Shown in pieces: positions 5,920-19,666 of a DNA stretch of 23,631 nt. Both the position numbers and the translations under genes were made by a program. Origin of the DNA: a virus; IMG/VR virus record IMGVR_UViG_3300049893_003531, positions 1 through 23,631 of that record. One strand, written 5' to 3'. Every line of letters starts with the position of its first letter. Position 1 is the first letter of the stretch. The notes beneath the pieces are model-generated. The model was not told the origin of the DNA and did not search any database. It saw nothing but the letters and a program-made list of their open reading frames with translations.

Positions 5920-6405
5920 ATGGAAATTGTCAAGTACCCCACTGAGACCCTTCTTCAAACAAGCAAGCGCGTCGAGGATTTTGATGCTTCGCTTGCGTCT
6001 CTTGCAGACGCAATGGTCGAGACCATGTATGCCAACGACGGAGTTGGTCTAGCAGCCCCACAAGTTGGCAGGAATATTCGAATGATTGTCGTTGATCCAT
6101 CCTCAGGACACAAAAAAGACAGTTTGCTGGTTCTCGTGAATCCTGTCGTGATGTGGAGATCGAAAGATGAGTCGACGCAAGTCGAGGGCTGCTTGTCGAT
6201 CCCGGGCATGACCCGTGCAATTCCACGCCCAAGCGCAGTGACGATCGTATATCAGACTCTCACGGGAGCAGCACACGAGACAACGTTCGTCGGACCAACT
6301 GCACGAATCATTCAGCATGAGATTGATCACCTTGATGGCATTTTGATCAATAGCCAAAAAATCAAGGCAACATCAAGTTCCAAAACGAAAGAGGCGAGAG
6401 CATGA
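5920..6405 (+). CDS. def: Peptide deformylase
   Basis: The enzyme removes the formyl group from the N-terminal Met of nascent bacterial-type proteins, acting at the ribosome. All three motifs are intact in 161 residues: GVGLAAPQVG (41-50), EGCLS (89-93, metal ligand Cys91) and QHEIDHLDG (132-140, ligands His133 and His137, catalytic Glu134). It lacks the long C-terminal extension of cellular forms, as is usual for phage deformylases, though a short Lys/Ser tail remains. It lies between the prohead protease and small head genes and overlaps the next gene as ATGA, so it is expressed late with structural genes. Phage deformylases are known, for example in cyanophages; this location in the head operon is less expected. 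Confidence 0.96.
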   Translation: MEIVKYPTETLLQTSKRVEDFDASLASLADAMVETMYANDGVGLAAPQVGRNIRMIVVDPSSGHKKDSLLVLVNPVVMWRSKDESTQVEGCLSIPGMTRAIPRPSAVTIVYQTLTGAAHETTFVGPTARIIQHEIDHLDGILINSQKIKATSSSKTKEARA

Positions 6406-9790: not shown

Positions 9791-11662
9791 ATGGCATCTA
9801 ACAAGTTTTTCAGCCTCGAGCAGCTGGCTCAGGGCATTCGTGACAAGCACGTCGGCGCAGAGCGTGCACGTCTGACGGAGAAGTGGAGCCGCACGGGCCT
9901 CCTCCGCGGACTCGACGGCCAGAAGCGTGAGATGATGTCGCAGCTTCTCGAGAACCAGACGGCTCAGCTTCTCCGTGAAGCGAACGTCCTCTCGACGGGC
10001 GGCGGCAACGTCGTCGGCAGCGGCCAGATCCAGGGCTTCAGCAATGTCGCCTTCCCGATCGTCCGCCGCGTGTTCGGAGGCCTCGTGGCCAACGAGCTCG
10101 TTTCGATCCAGCCAATGAGCCTCCCCGCGGGACTCATCTTCTACCTCGACTACGTGTACGGCGGCGATGTTGGCAAGCCCACGGGCGCCACCTCTTCGAC
10201 CTACACCCGCGGCCAGTCGCTGTACAACAGCCCGACTGGCAAGGGCATTCAGTCGTCGTCTCTCGGCGTCGGCGGTATGTACGACCTGGTGAACACGGGC
10301 TACTCTCGCGTCACTGGCTCGGCAATGGCTCTGTCCTTCACCGCAGTCGGCGCCTGGAAGGGCACCAACGGTGACACATGGACCTCGGGCGGCACCCTCG
10401 CCGCGGCCACCGACTTCAGCGGAACGAACGCTCGCTTCGCGAACTACGACAGCCAGGTGGAGAACGACCTCGCAGCGGGAACCCTCGACGCAGCATTCGC
10501 TGTTGTTGACATCTCGACTGCTGGATTTGCCAACATGGACAAGCTCGCTGCCAACCAGCTCGCTGTTCACGACGGCGTCGCCGGCCCTGGAACGGCTTGG
10601 GGTGAGACCTATCAGGTCGGCACCGGAATCCTGAACCTCCGCCGCACCAACGTGCGCGGTAACTGGAGCGCAGGAACCTTCACACCAGATGCACTCAACG
10701 GTACACACATCCTGACCATGGTCAAGGGTGCCAACGGCGCTCTTCTCTCTGGCTCGGCCGGAAACGTTGACGTCACCTTCTCGGTGTCGTCTGCTCTGTC
10801 GGTCGACTCCTCCAGCGGTGCAACCGTGACGATTCCCTCCTTCGAGTCTGACTTCGGCGCCACCCCGTCGCCGGTCATCCCGGAGATCGAGATCAAGATC
10901 GAGTCTATCTCGATCGTCGCTGAGACCCGCAAGCTCCGCGCGAAGTGGAGCCCTGAGATGGCTCAGGACCTCAACGCGTACCACAGCACGGACGCCGAGG
11001 TCGAGCTCACCTCGATCCTCTCGGAGCAGATCGCTCTCGAGATTGATCGCGAGATCCTCAACGACCTGCTCACGCAGGCCAACGGCGCGAACTTCTACTG
11101 GAGCCGCTCGCCCGGTCGCTTCGTCAACAAGCGCACCGGCGCCCGCCAGGCTCTCTCGGACTCGCTCCAGATCGGACCTCAGTTCACTGGCACGATTCGT
11201 GAGTGGTATGAGTCGCTCATCGAGACCATCATCGACGTGGCGAATGAGATCCACAGGAAGACCCTCCGCGGCTCCGCGAACTTCCTCGTGACCGGCCCCG
11301 ACGTCTGCACCATCCTCGAGAGCTCGGTCCTCTACAAGCCGAAGTTCTCCATGGACGGTGAGGGACAGGTCGGATCCCCCTTCACCATCGGCGCAGAGGC
11401 GATCGGCACCGTGTCGAACCGCTTCACGGTCTACAAGGACCCCTACTTCCCCCGCAACCGCATCCTCGTCGGTTACAAGGGCGGCAGCTACCTCGAGACC
11501 GGCTACGTGTACGCCCCGTACGTTCCCCTCATCGTCACCCCGACGATCTTCGCACCCGAGGACTTCACACCCCGCAAGGGCGTGATGACCCGGTACGGCA
11601 AGAAGACGGTCCGCTCGGACTTCTACGGAACCGTCACCCTCCTCGACATGCAGGTCATCTGA
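9791..11662 (+). CDS. Major capsid protein (T4 gp23-like)
   Basis: The main shell protein, 623 residues against 521 in T4. Family hallmarks are EKWSRTGLL (30-38), MMSQLLENQTAQLLRE (48-63), FPIVRRVFGGLVANELVSIQ (88-107), PAGLIFYLDYVYGG (112-125) and a C-terminal HK97-core block IKIESISIVAETRKLRAKWS (368-387) to QIALEIDREIL (413-423). LLRE63/A64 is a good match to the gp21 cleavage rule and to the T4 maturation site after residue 65. Residues about 130-362 are Gly/Ser/Thr-rich with low family similarity and probably form an insertion domain on the outer surface. Codons are strikingly C-ending (CTC, GTC, ACC, CGC) compared with TerL and portal, suggesting selection for high expression. A strong hairpin terminator follows. 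Confidence 0.96.
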   Translation: MASNKFFSLEQLAQGIRDKHVGAERARLTEKWSRTGLLRGLDGQKREMMSQLLENQTAQLLREANVLSTGGGNVVGSGQIQGFSNVAFPIVRRVFGGLVANELVSIQPMSLPAGLIFYLDYVYGGDVGKPTGATSSTYTRGQSLYNSPTGKGIQSSSLGVGGMYDLVNTGYSRVTGSAMALSFTAVGAWKGTNGDTWTSGGTLAAATDFSGTNARFANYDSQVENDLAAGTLDAAFAVVDISTAGFANMDKLAANQLAVHDGVAGPGTAWGETYQVGTGILNLRRTNVRGNWSAGTFTPDALNGTHILTMVKGANGALLSGSAGNVDVTFSVSSALSVDSSSGATVTIPSFESDFGATPSPVIPEIEIKIESISIVAETRKLRAKWSPEMAQDLNAYHSTDAEVELTSILSEQIALEIDREILNDLLTQANGANFYWSRSPGRFVNKRTGARQALSDSLQIGPQFTGTIREWYESLIETIIDVANEIHRKTLRGSANFLVTGPDVCTILESSVLYKPKFSMDGEGQVGSPFTIGAEAIGTVSNRFTVYKDPYFPRNRILVGYKGGSYLETGYVYAPYVPLIVTPTIFAPEDFTPRKGVMTRYGKKTVRSDFYGTVTLLDMQVI

Positions 11663-15794: not shown

Positions 15795-16194
15795 GAAGAA
15801 GAAGTATGTCGAGGTCGAGACGCAGTTCTCTCTATCGAGATCACAAGTATTGTCGCTTTATACTCTCATGACCACGGCTGCATCTTCGCTTCGACGGGTC
15901 GATGAGGACTTGAGCGACGAGATTCGCAAGAACGCTCTCTATGAGATGTTCGAAGATTTTCTGTCCACCCCCACAGCACCGATGGATCCTGTGGTGCGTA
16001 GCATTGAGAGATCGATTCGTAAGGCTGCTGACTTGGCCTTTGCATCTCCTAATAAGATTGCAAAGTCGAAGACGAGACCTTCAATGGTTGACGAGAACAC
16101 CTATGCGCAGGCAGTGGTAGCTGAGGCTGATGATGCAACCCGGGTCAAAGCTGCAGAAGAAGAGACACTCAAACAGTGGCAGGATAAGCAATGA
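15787..16194 (+). CDS. Uncharacterised helical protein
   Basis: The ATG at 15787 is preferred because GAGGAGGA lies just upstream, inside the acidic gene's end, giving a 135-residue product that overlaps the upstream gene by 8 bases. The protein starts MSKKKKYVEVETQFSLSRSQV, is helical and charged, and ends KAAEEETLKQWQDKQ. No enzyme or DNA-binding motif is obvious. It is the middle gene of a translationally coupled trio (15165, 15787, 16191), so its role is probably linked to those two proteins. Confidence 0.8.
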   Translation: MSKKKKYVEVETQFSLSRSQVLSLYTLMTTAASSLRRVDEDLSDEIRKNALYEMFEDFLSTPTAPMDPVVRSIERSIRKAADLAFASPNKIAKSKTRPSMVDENTYAQAVVAEADDATRVKAAEEETLKQWQDKQ

Positions 16195-16658
16195 TCACAT
16201 TTGAGCTCACTGACAGAGAGGCACTTGTTCTTCTGGAGATTCTGGCAGGAGTCGCTGCTGCTGAACGCATCGTCGTTCCCAAGGATTCAGAGAAGAATCG
16301 CCATGTCCATGCTAAGATTCGCAAGGTGATTGAGGATCAGCTCTGTTACAATCAAGAGGCGCTCGACCTCGAGGTCGGCCGAGACATTGGTCGATACATC
16401 GAGAGTCAAGCAAATCCCGAAAAAGCCCGACATGTCTCTGTCAGCACAGTCGTCGCCGACGTGGTCGAAGCAGCCGCAGCCAAAGCCAAGATCCAGGATC
16501 AGCTTTCTGCTCGGTCTTATGAAGAGATCATAGCTGAACTCGAGAAAATGAAGGCCGAACAGACTCGCGACGCAGCCATTTCTCAAATGGATTCAGATCT
16601 TGAGCGGCCTTCAGATTTGAAGCAGCTTCATCTGCCATTCGACAAGAAGAACAAGTGA
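16191..16658 (+). CDS. Uncharacterised helical protein with C-terminal QLHLPF motif
   Basis: The 155-residue protein overlaps the previous gene as ATGA. It begins MITFELTDREALVLLEILAG, a hydrophobic helix-strand start, continues with charged helices and ends DLKQLHLPFDKKNK. The hexapeptide QLHLPF near the end fits the bacterial sliding-clamp-binding consensus (compare QLSLPL in Hda), in a flexible, solvent-exposed tail position where such motifs often lie. That suggests a link to replication, but one short motif can arise by chance. No catalytic signature is seen. The gene lies 26 bases upstream of the tmRNA gene. Confidence 0.8.
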   Translation: MITFELTDREALVLLEILAGVAAAERIVVPKDSEKNRHVHAKIRKVIEDQLCYNQEALDLEVGRDIGRYIESQANPEKARHVSVSTVVADVVEAAAAKAKIQDQLSARSYEEIIAELEKMKAEQTRDAAISQMDSDLERPSDLKQLHLPFDKKNK

Positions 16659-16664
16659 CAGCTC

Positions 16665-16680
16665 GGGCCTACGTAGGCCC
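16665..16680. repeat. Perfect 16-bp palindrome GGGCCTACGTAGGCCC just upstream of tmRNA
   Basis: The palindrome can form a 6-bp GC-rich stem with an ACGT loop. It ends 4 bases before the first tmRNA base. It may be a processing hairpin for the tmRNA precursor, a terminator or stability hairpin for the upstream mRNA, or a protein-binding site. Confidence 0.7.
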
Positions 16681-16684
16681 ATAC

Positions 16685-17051
16685 GGGGGTGACAGGATTC
16701 GACAGAGCGACGACGTTTTACTCTGCAAGCTCCAGTGCACGAGGGTCTGGAACAAAAACCCATGTGACGTACAAACGCCAACGACAACGGTGTTGCTCCT
16801 CTCGCCATCGCGGCCTGAGGAATGGGGTCCTAGCACCTAGAAACAGAACGCTAGGAAAACGCCGGGGAACCAGGCGTAATCTGGAACACGTCGAAGCGCT
16901 GGACGTAAAACGAAGTGCCGTCCGTGGTAGTCTTGGACGCTAAAGTTCGACTGTCTAGACCTTCCCGAGGTCGAGCACCAAGAGGGACAAGCTTGTGGAT
17001 GAGGAGTAAAATGAGGCGTTTTGGACTTGGGTTCAACTCCCAACACCTCCA
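16685..17051 (+). ncRNA. ssrA: Transfer-messenger RNA (tmRNA), one-piece
   Basis: tmRNA rescues stalled ribosomes and adds a degradation tag, working with host SmpB. The ends fold as expected. The acceptor GGGGGTG (16685-16691) pairs with CACCTCC (17044-17050) and includes the G3-U70 wobble that alanyl-tRNA synthetase requires. The T-arm is TTGGG-TTCAACT-CCCAA (17027-17043). The 5' GGATTCGAC segment is typical of tmRNA. Helix H2 pairs TTTTACTC (16716-16723) with GAGTAAAA (17004-17011). A PK1-like GGGT/ACCC pair (16743-16746, 16758-16761) lies before the tag, and an H5-like CCTAGC/GCTAGG pair (16829-16834, 16850-16855) lies after it. The tag ORF is at 16777. After discriminator A17051 comes CTA, not CCA, so CCA would have to be added. 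No SmpB gene is in the window. Confidence 0.95.
16777..16818 (+). other. tmRNA tag reading frame, peptide ANDNGVAPLAIAA
   Basis: From resume codon GCC (16777-16779) the frame reads ANDNGVAPLAIAA and stops at TGA (16816-16818). The AND(N) start and the hydrophobic small-residue end match bacterial tags. The final AIAA replaces the usual ALAA seen by ClpXP. The resume codon lies 15 bases after the PK1-like stem, in line with known tmRNAs. Confidence 0.9.
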
Positions 17052-17072
17052 CTATTTTTGACACCTCCACCA
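17043..17072 (+). repeat. Direct repeat of the tmRNA 3' end (ACACCTCCAC, 18-bp period)
   Basis: ACACCTCCAC occurs at 17043-17052, where it forms the folded acceptor end of the tmRNA, and again at 17061-17070. Copy 1 continues TAT and copy 2 continues CAT, so copy 2 reads CACCTCCACCA, which is the acceptor strand plus discriminator plus an encoded CCA. This looks like a duplicated or displaced tmRNA 3' terminus at the junction with the endonuclease gene. Confidence 0.8.
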
Positions 17073-17080
17073 TACTTAGA
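17071..17080 (+). promoter_or_regulatory. Candidate late promoter CATACTTAGA directly before the endonuclease ATG
   Basis: The TACTTA core (17073-17078) is separated from the ATG at 17083 by only 4 bases. There is no ribosome binding site in that gap. If used like a T4 late box, transcription would start essentially at the initiation codon. Confidence 0.45.
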
Positions 17081-17082
17081 TC

Positions 17083-17841
17083 ATGTACAAATGTGATGAG
17101 TGTGGTGGAGAGTACGAGACATGGCAAGCAAAGGCCAACCACGTTCGATGGAAACATAAGCCTACGCAATACACTGAAGACGGGCTTCGTCGTTTGCGTG
17201 AGTCTGTCAAGCAGACCAACAATAGGATTCATGGTCCAAAGTCAGAAGTCACAGAAGATCGCACCTGCTTGTGCGGCAAGAAATTCTCTGTGACATTCTC
17301 ACCTGAGCGTAGAACTTACATTCGAAAGACGTGCTCAAAGGAGTGCGCTTCTCGACATCCTCAGACGCAAGAGACAAATGACAAGAGGAGCCGAAAGCTG
17401 AAAGAGCTCTTTCGAACGAATCCTGAGTCATTTGAAAATTGGATGCGAGCAGGATATGATGCTAAAGGTTCTCGTTTTTCGTCCAAAGCTGAGAGAGCGC
17501 TAGGCGAAGCTCTTCGACCATATGGGTATCGACGTCATCAGCTGATCAAGACTGGCGACATCAAGTTCGATGTAGACATTGTCTCAGAGGACATGACAGT
17601 GTGGGTCGAATCTGACGGAGAGTACCACTTCAGAAAAGTGCACGAAGGACATAACTTTGACGCAACGAGACTGAGAGATCAGATAGAAGAAGCAGAGGCA
17701 GTGTTTCGAAAAGTCTTGCTTGTCCGAGTCAACAATCAAACAACGACGATCGATGAGCAAGTCGCTTTTGTTATGACGTCTGTTGCGTCCTGGGATAGAG
17801 TAGAAGGAAAGATCGTCAAGCTGGGCTTCGATGATCTTTAG
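17083..17841 (+). CDS. Putative free-standing homing endonuclease: zinc fingers plus Vsr/PD-(D/E)XK-like nuclease
   Basis: The 252-residue protein starts with a C2H2-type finger YKCDECGGEYETW...H (C4, C7, H20, H25). A second Cys cluster (C62, C64, C84, C88) resembles a zinc ribbon. The C-terminal half (132-220) looks like a very-short-patch-repair/PD-(D/E)XK-type nuclease: SKAERALGEAL (E137), IKFDVDIV (D163, D165), VWVESDGEYHF (E176, D178), then a helix HEGHNFDATRLRDQIEEAEA and strand KVLLVRVN. Similar Vsr-like (EDxHD) domains occur in phage homing endonucleases such as I-Bth0305I. The gene begins 31 bases after the tmRNA, next to a duplicated tmRNA end, which suits a mobile gene. The ATG is the only suitable start. 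The exact nuclease subfamily is uncertain. Confidence 0.85.
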   Translation: MYKCDECGGEYETWQAKANHVRWKHKPTQYTEDGLRRLRESVKQTNNRIHGPKSEVTEDRTCLCGKKFSVTFSPERRTYIRKTCSKECASRHPQTQETNDKRSRKLKELFRTNPESFENWMRAGYDAKGSRFSSKAERALGEALRPYGYRRHQLIKTGDIKFDVDIVSEDMTVWVESDGEYHFRKVHEGHNFDATRLRDQIEEAEAVFRKVLLVRVNNQTTTIDEQVAFVMTSVASWDRVEGKIVKLGFDDL

Positions 17842-18471: not shown

Positions 18472-18478
18472 CTTGCTC

Positions 18479-18491
18479 CTATTTACGGGCA
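18479..18491 (+). promoter_or_regulatory. Candidate late promoter CTATTTACGGGCA at the start of the neck operon
   Basis: TATTTACGGGCA is identical over 12 bases to 11768-11779. The last A of TATTTA (18485) is exactly six bases before the A of ATG 18491, so a T4-like late start would fall on the initiation codon. No good ribosome site is present. Confidence 0.55.
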
Positions 18492-19666
18492 TGCCCAGCT
18501 TTGTGCAGACTATTGCTCCGACCTCGTTCGGATTCTTCGATTCTGACCCTGCCTTTCAGGCGGAGGCCGACTCGATGGTTACCTTCGTCAGACGAATGTT
18601 GGGCGGAGATGTCCTGTCGGTTGAGCTCACGACGCACACAATCTGGACCTGCTTCGAGTTGGCGTGTTGCGAGTACAGCAGGCTCGTGCACGAGACGAAA
18701 ATCACGTCAGAGCTCACCAACATGCTTGGTCTCCCGACGTCGTCTTCTCTCACGAACAAGTATCCACGTCAGACGCTGGAGTATCTTCTGAGAATGGCAG
18801 ATCCGTACGCAACTGAAGCGTACGTCGGAGGTTCATTCAACGGAACGATGGGATACTTCAATGTGGAGTGGGGACGTCAGGATTACGACATCTACACAGA
18901 ACTTCTGGATGTTAATACCAACACACCCGTCTACGACTCTTTGCCGTCTGGCTCTAAGGGCAAGCTGAAGATCGTGGAATTGTTTCACTTTTCTCCCTTC
19001 GCTGCTCAGCAGACTCTTCTCAATGCGTCCAACATCACCAACTTTCTAGCGACAAACTTCAACTACGAGTCGTACGTCAACTCGACGATCTTCTACGTTT
19101 TGCCCGTCTTTGAGGATGTTCTGCGTCGAGGCATGTTGGAGACAGCGACAAGAGTTCGCCGCTCTCACTACTCATACCAGATCTTGGGCAGCAAGCTGCG
19201 CATCTTTCCCATTCCTGCAGTCGATGCAAGCGTTGGAAAGATGTACTGCAAAGTCATGCCGCCTCATGATCCCCTGAATCCGTCTGCCTACGGCGACGAC
19301 TCCGTCAACGGTATCTCGGGACCTGCTCAGGTGCCTCTCGACAACATTCCATACTCGACGATCAACCAGCCTGGCAGGCAATGGATTCGTCAGTACACTC
19401 TGGCTCTTGCCATGATTCGTCTTGGAATCATTCGCTCCAAGATGAAGAACATGCCCATTCCCAACGCAGATCTCCAGCTAGACGGAGACGACTTGAAGGC
19501 GATGGGCAAGGAAGATCGAGAGAAGCTGGAGACAAATCTCAAGGAGTTCTTGGCGAATCTCACGCACCAGAAGCTGCTTGAGACGAATGCCAACGCAGCA
19601 GAGAATCTCAATAAGCAGCTGAGATACACTGCTATGCCCTTGGGCAAGGCCATCACCATCGGATGA
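18491..19666 (+). CDS. Probable neck protein (gp13 position)
   Basis: I choose ATG 18491 (392 residues) over an upstream TTG at 18473, which has no ribosome site and would include the promoter-like element. The protein is mixed alpha/beta: MPSFVQTIAPTSFGFFDSD, a helical block with ADSMVTFVRRMLG, then FNVEWGRQDYDIYTELLD. The C-terminal segment GRQWIRQYTLALAMIRLGII precedes IPNADLQLDGDDL and charged helices ending AMPLGKAITIG. Its place before gp14-like, gp15-like and sheath genes corresponds to T4 gene 13 (309 residues), whose product completes the head and joins it to the tail. The assignment rests mainly on gene order and general pattern. Confidence 0.75.
   Translation: MPSFVQTIAPTSFGFFDSDPAFQAEADSMVTFVRRMLGGDVLSVELTTHTIWTCFELACCEYSRLVHETKITSELTNMLGLPTSSSLTNKYPRQTLEYLLRMADPYATEAYVGGSFNGTMGYFNVEWGRQDYDIYTELLDVNTNTPVYDSLPSGSKGKLKIVELFHFSPFAAQQTLLNASNITNFLATNFNYESYVNSTIFYVLPVFEDVLRRGMLETATRVRRSHYSYQILGSKLRIFPIPAVDASVGKMYCKVMPPHDPLNPSAYGDDSVNGISGPAQVPLDNIPYSTINQPGRQWIRQYTLALAMIRLGIIRSKMKNMPIPNADLQLDGDDLKAMGKEDREKLETNLKEFLANLTHQKLLETNANAAENLNKQLRYTAMPLGKAITIG

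Follow-up and report, generated by a model that had tools for sequence, protein, structure and literature searches.

Phage-encoded tmRNAs are known from Bxz1-type mycobacteriophages and, in permuted form, from Methylophilales phage Melnitz. By 2021, a tmRNA had been found in 402 of 18,146 phage genomes, or about 2% (PMC9004378), and one is present in the T4-like Stenotrophomonas myophage Marzo (PMC8928761); the statement in the original prediction for this locus that such RNAs are known but uncommon is thus fair, if dated. Among mobile nucleases, T4 SegB is a GIY-YIG enzyme acting in a tRNA intergenic region, and I-TevI has an operator that copies its target together with a hairpin that limits translation (PMC2988022). 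The T-loop of tmRNA is itself invaded by group I introns, which have been described in 883 tmRNA sequences, with LAGLIDADG nuclease genes in 23 of 844 founding introns (PMC11915505).

The window, by which we mean the whole 23.6-kb stretch of DNA analysed here, is a virus record with head genes of T4 type. PHROGs matches identify, in order, a T4-type terminase, portal, prohead protease and gp23-type capsid protein, as well as a gp13-like neck protein, and tblastn of the window proteins matches T4-like phages. No near-identical phage is present in the phage collection, and the nearest isolates by protein are Microcystis phage Mel-JY01 and Flavobacterium immuto phages (34–45%). The tmRNA 5′ end, used as a guide to host lineage, matched three unrelated candidate-phylum genomes and was uninformative. 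Flanked by the prohead protease and scaffold genes is a peptide deformylase gene (5920–6405; PF01327, E = 7e-46), found at the same place in three relatives (G013, G069 and G092). The window portal gene is uninterrupted; those of G090, G092 and G069 (L208, L212 and L214) are in pieces, with intron- or intein-like gaps of 1–2 kb at about residues 82, 235, 294 and 352.

Lying between the major capsid gene (9791–11662) and the gp13 neck gene (18473–19666), where the original prediction had placed it, is a one-piece tmRNA (ssrA) gene on the forward strand (16685–17054). The two programs named in that prediction as a check agree on it: ARAGORN, run over the whole window, reports the tmRNA as the sole RNA gene (16685–17052, tag ANDNGVAPLAIAA), and Rfam cmscan places RF00023 at 16685–17054 with 77.1 bits (gathering score 47; E = 1.2e-28), a match that covers the full model (1–374), is not truncated and gives no group I intron in the window tmRNA. 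A complete tmRNA in a T4-like structural region is thereby confirmed. The predicted start at 16685 stands; the predicted end, 17051, is the discriminator A, and the Rfam end lies at 17054. As the trinucleotide encoded at 17052–17054 is CUA, not CCA, CCA addition would be needed; in relatives' genes this position reads CUA, CUC, CAA, CCG or CCA.

All of the predicted elements could be located on the forward strand. The acceptor strand GGGGGUG (16685–16691) pairs with CACCUCC (17044–17050) and includes G3-U70. The T-arm (17027–17043) reads UUGGG-UUCAACU-CCCAA and, together with the 3′ acceptor strand (17027–17050), contains in DNA letters the motif TTCAACT-N8-CTCCAC. The long P2 helix, or H2, is formed by a 5′ strand at 16715–16731 and a 3′ strand at 16990–17012, with 16715–16723 paired to 17004–17012 and 16725–16731 to 16990–16996. 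PK1 comprises CCAG/CUGG plus GGGU/ACCC, and PK2–PK4 were read by eye from the window sequence alone. The tag frame ANDNGVAPLAIAA (16777–16818), reported by ARAGORN, has a GCC resume codon and a UGA stop, and 3′ of it is an H5-like hairpin, CCUAGC/GCUAGG. As in Bxz1 and Marzo, the window tmRNA is in one piece, with a tRNA-like domain, pseudoknots and a tag, and no phage SmpB was found; it differs from permuted Melnitz in form, and from known phage tmRNAs in encoding CUA for CCA, in its capsid–neck location, in its nuclease partner and in a clade-specific tag, ANDN(G)..AA.

The tmRNA begins 26 nt past the stop codon of a small forward-strand protein gene taken from the ORF list (16191–16658), and is therefore probably co-transcribed with it and then processed out; in G005, G009 and G090 it likewise begins a few tens of nucleotides past a 5′ stop codon. 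No promoter-like site was found directly 5′ of the window tmRNA. The T4 late promoter TATAAATA, allowing at most one mismatch, occurs nowhere in the window (0 matches against 1.66 expected, with the reservation that promoters of non-close T4 relatives may differ), so that the late transcription context of the original prediction now derives from gene order only. Three bases 5′ of the tmRNA start is a perfect palindrome, GGGCCTACGTAGGCCC (16666–16681), replaced by a different hairpin in G092; it is possibly a processing signal.

Locus scans with the neck protein and the capsid protein returned 67 and 47 loci, respectively. Eight phages carry the tmRNA at the same site (the window, G005, G009, G013, G069, G090, G091 and G092), in the shared order MCP..o14804..tmRNA..o17974..gp13, the o17974/gp13 side being seen where the contig extends that far. 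The capsid–neck placement is conserved in this clade of large T4-like phages. ARAGORN misses the genes of G005 and G009. Across the eight sequences, which are 61–84% identical, 173 of 176 cells of the acceptor, T-stem, P2a and PK1-S1 are paired (98% standard; the misplaced PK1 row of G013 in the covariation table is to be disregarded), about 10 of the 22 stem pairs show two-sided, compensatory changes, among them pairs of P2a, and G3-U70 is kept in all eight. The tags are homologous (ANDNGVAPLALAA, ANDNGYAALALAA, ANDNGYAALAHAA, ANDNDYAPVALAA, ANDNGYVPVNLAA and ANDNGFADDVRLAA), following the pattern ANDN(G/D)...AA. Their ends (LAIAA, LALAA, LAHAA, NLAA or RLAA) keep the AA, which does not support the altered protease routing proposed originally. 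Elsewhere, inside a tRNA cluster on an otherwise unrelated viral contig, is a tmRNA (L013:2675–3042, tag GNDNNQFALAA) that has the 5′ end motif of the window.

Other relatives have lost the gene or replaced it. A short scar joining its 5′ and 3′ parts is left in L110 (G055), a scar with a nuclease remnant in L093 (G004), and the site is clean in seven (L016, L113, L115, L122, L132, L137 and L139). L138 has tRNA-like genes at the corresponding place (17090–17355), which marks the site as a general RNA-gene slot. The tmRNA gene is thus dispensable, as it would be if it were a passive, functionless relic captured from a host chromosome, for example by integration at ssrA. The tag of G069 (L173:1501–1874), which has lost its stop (GCGGCATTAG) to give a 34-residue read-through tag, would also suit a relic; this loss is possibly decay, or a sequencing error at the contig end. 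We nevertheless regard a relic as very unlikely, since the stems have changed in compensation, the tag frame is conserved and G3-U70 is invariant despite the sequence divergence, and the annotated proteins of the window include none recognised as integrase-like. An integrative element at ssrA was rejected for the window on the latter ground and because no convincing displaced tmRNA 3′ end was found there.

A search of 19 phage records gave no SmpB, and the tmRNA would therefore depend on the SmpB of its host. The same observation would suit a decoy RNA that blocks trans-translation in the host by competing for its SmpB; this has been proposed for phage DS6A, whose tmRNA is tRNA-like only and is reported to inhibit tmRNA (PMC4131195, PMC11915505). 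The tag frame and pseudoknots of the window tmRNA are, unlike those of DS6A, complete and conserved, and a decoy is the least probable of the explanations considered here. The tmRNA is real and conserved, and probably functional, and its structure and covariation make a role in ribosome rescue plausible.

Absent from the original prediction is the gene that follows. Beginning 29 nt downstream of the tmRNA, on the same strand, is an open reading frame (17083–17841) whose 252-residue product combines an N-terminal C2H2-like finger and Cys4 ribbon with a C-terminal region that aligns as Vsr/DUF559-like and carries an ExDGxxHF motif. Domain matches are weak (DUF559, E = 0.006, below the cut-off; MTES_1575), and the search gave no GIY-YIG family match, the core being ExDGxxHF instead. 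A single-sequence fold was unusable (pLDDT 39); an AF2 model built with eight sequences reached pLDDT 78, and its highest-probability Foldseek match is 1vsr (0.75), at a non-significant E of 0.44. Together with family linkage, the alignment and model make a Vsr-like homing endonuclease likely but not proven, and we refer to the putative enzyme here as the nuclease. A candidate member of the EDxHD/Vsr-like enzymes such as I-Bth0305I, it resembles them in its putative Vsr-like C-terminal core, ExDGxxHF motif and modular DNA-binding N terminus, and differs from them in its N-terminal fingers and in giving no significant sequence or fold match.

A scan of viral contigs with the single protein returned no relatives, a two-sequence nuclease alignment used as the query returned 16 loci, and no plasmid relatives were found. 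The sole relative in annotated phages, in the 735-kb phage LR756501, lies about 90 nt after a tmRNA whose sequence is interrupted, in or near the T-loop, by a group I intron (96 bits). In IMG/VR, four relatives (L181, L182, L183 and L184) follow a one-piece tmRNA by 40–55 nt, that of L234 also comes after a tmRNA, that of L186 precedes a permuted tmRNA by about 100 nt, and that of L185 adjoins an antisense tmRNA-like gene scoring below the cut-off (28.9 bits). The N-terminal fingers recur with an HNH-like C terminus 3′ of tRNA-Ala(TGC) in L191–L194 and, in L195/L196, 3′ of a tRNA-Ala that a group I intron interrupts. Exceptions are the nucleases of L188–L190, near-copies of each other, which are not near a tmRNA. 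Across unrelated phages, this nuclease family is found again and again next to tmRNA or tRNA-Ala genes, which suggests that mobile nucleases regularly target phage tmRNA genes and perhaps carry them along as passengers.

One alternative is that the tmRNA is an ordinary one, under selection because it helps translation, and that an unrelated nuclease is free-loading in a tolerated gap behind it. Clade members carry the tmRNA with no nuclease (G005, G009, G013, and G069 as far as its contig goes), as do other phages (PMC9004378), and intergenic gaps of T4-like phages often hold free-standing nucleases (PMC2988022). Against such a chance association stand the recurrence, in several unrelated phages, of one family next to tmRNA or tRNA-Ala and a nuclease leader that repeats the T-loop/acceptor end at the tRNA spacing, and we consider it unlikely.

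In that leader the tmRNA 3′ end is repeated as ACACCTCCACCAT (17061–17073, forward strand), a second copy found by repeat search (shuffle P = 0.001). It is identical at 12 of 13 positions to 17043–17055, from which it lies 18 nt downstream, and its CTCCAC sits 18 nt upstream of the nuclease start codon. A YTCCAY motif, the acceptor part of a T-loop-N8-CTCCAY mimic, is present in 10 of 12 nuclease loci, against 0.59 expected, at a distance of 18–29 nt on the 5′ side of the start codon, and at that position in none of eight control tmRNA loci that have no nuclease; as the motif was chosen post hoc, after the loci had been read, and several loci are related, the tail value overstates the significance. 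More independent is the spacing: tried at every distance, the T-loop consensus gives a single peak at N8 (47/60, against 6–26 elsewhere), as in a genuine T-arm and acceptor. In the window mimic the acceptor half is good and the T-loop part matches at only three of six positions. By a simple and blunt local alignment, the last 45 nt of the tmRNA match the downstream spacer significantly only in the window and L182, and marginally in L195.

Formed by the second copy and the first nuclease codons is a hairpin (17062–17114, forward strand) that encloses the nuclease start codon, with a minimum free energy of −28.2 kcal/mol (z = −5.4) reached by none of 200 shuffles. A similar leader hairpin is found in L181 (z = −5.9), and those of other loci are weaker. 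The likeness to I-TevI is a copy of the presumed target just 5′ of the start and a hairpin that hides the start codon; in contrast to I-TevI, the window nuclease is not intron-borne and is of another type, and the operator role is putative.

The second copy could instead be a mere scar of insertion into a tmRNA gene, with no operator or hairpin function. In bacteria, integration at tmRNA 3′ ends is common. Displaced 3′ ends past the nuclease are clear by the scored test in L192 and the remnant locus G004, and by eye in L185, and point to insertion at the T-loop/acceptor region; the match of L186 in this test is the permuted tmRNA itself. In the window, a weak and unconvincing match past the nuclease (11/13, P = 0.018) falls within the following gene, and displaced ends as a universal rule were rejected, being clear only in the three loci just named. 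A scar does not account for a distance to the start codon held at 18–29 nt, a T-loop-N8-acceptor spacing kept in unrelated loci despite differing flanks, or the very stable hairpin that the window copy makes over the start codon, and we think this reading doubtful, though it merits more weight than a free-loading nuclease.

The displaced copy in L093 reads GACAGTA. In the tmRNAs of L085 (G005), L086 (G009) and L173 (G069), the T-loop is GGCAGUA, not UUCRANU, and the D-loop is changed to UAGU(U/C)UCGAC or UAGCUUCGAC; ARAGORN misses these genes. Such alleles could be nuclease-resistant.

Capsid and tmRNA trees disagree. The capsid (MCP) tree groups the window with G090 and G091 (99/99) and the tmRNA tree with G092, G069 and G013 (100/100), and swapped topologies are rejected (AU P = 1.6e-5 for the tmRNA and 0.0067 for the capsid). 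By these trees, the site has stayed fixed while tmRNA alleles passed from phage to phage. Homing would cause such a conflict, and ordinary phage recombination could as well. G092 and G004 carry broken nuclease copies, which fits a homing cycle where invasion is followed by decay and loss.

We regard it as reasonably likely that the phage tmRNA at this locus works and that its neighbour is a free-standing homing endonuclease directed at the T-arm/acceptor of alanine RNAs, a tmRNA counterpart of T4 SegB. The tmRNA would be transcribed together with the structural genes around it, matured by the tRNA-processing enzymes of the host, given CCA and charged with alanine through G3-U70; with host SmpB, it would free stalled ribosomes and add ANDNGVAPLAIAA to the proteins they had been making. 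The nuclease would recognise the T-loop/acceptor end of alanine-type RNA genes, with TTCAACT-N8-CTCCAC as the proposed site, and cut nuclease-less alleles in co-infecting phages. Repair would then spread the tmRNA–nuclease segment, as for SegB and the T4 tRNA region, while the mimic in the nuclease leader, as one arm of the hairpin around the start codon, would limit expression in the manner of I-TevI. As with SegB, a free-standing nuclease lies beside RNA genes in a T4-like phage and is expected to bias inheritance of the region; unlike SegB, it is of a zinc-finger and probably Vsr-like type and tied to tmRNA/tRNA-Ala. The region coincides with that invaded by the T-loop group I introns, one of which splits the LR756501 tmRNA near a homologous nuclease, whereas the window tmRNA is intronless and its nuclease free-standing and not LAGLIDADG.

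Counting against the homing reading are the four clade members with a tmRNA and no nuclease (G069 to the end of its contig), the L188–L190 nucleases that lie away from any tmRNA, and the presence of the presumed site in the phage's own tmRNA. A kill-and-replace device would have the nuclease cut this common T-loop/acceptor site in host ssrA, host tRNA-Ala genes and the tmRNA genes of rival phages, with the phage's own, protected tmRNA taking over rescue and spreading mainly by way of the nuclease. We consider such a device improbable, more so than a chance association of tmRNA and nuclease.

Phage tmRNAs themselves were already known; the repeated loss and exchange of the gene, like the duplicated 3′ end, had not been part of the original prediction. 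What is new is that tmRNA/tRNA-Ala genes are tied to a nuclease family whose leader carries a target mimic; in the openly accessible literature, we found no report linking a phage tmRNA with a homing endonuclease. The family may exemplify recognition modules that are shared while the nuclease domains are swapped, and with it the invaders known for the tmRNA T-loop, group I introns and islands, come to include free-standing phage nucleases. Its tie to tmRNA and tRNA-Ala offers a testable answer to the question of why some phages carry tmRNA, one in which no benefit to the phage is needed: homing may be what keeps a phage tmRNA gene in place and drives its exchange.
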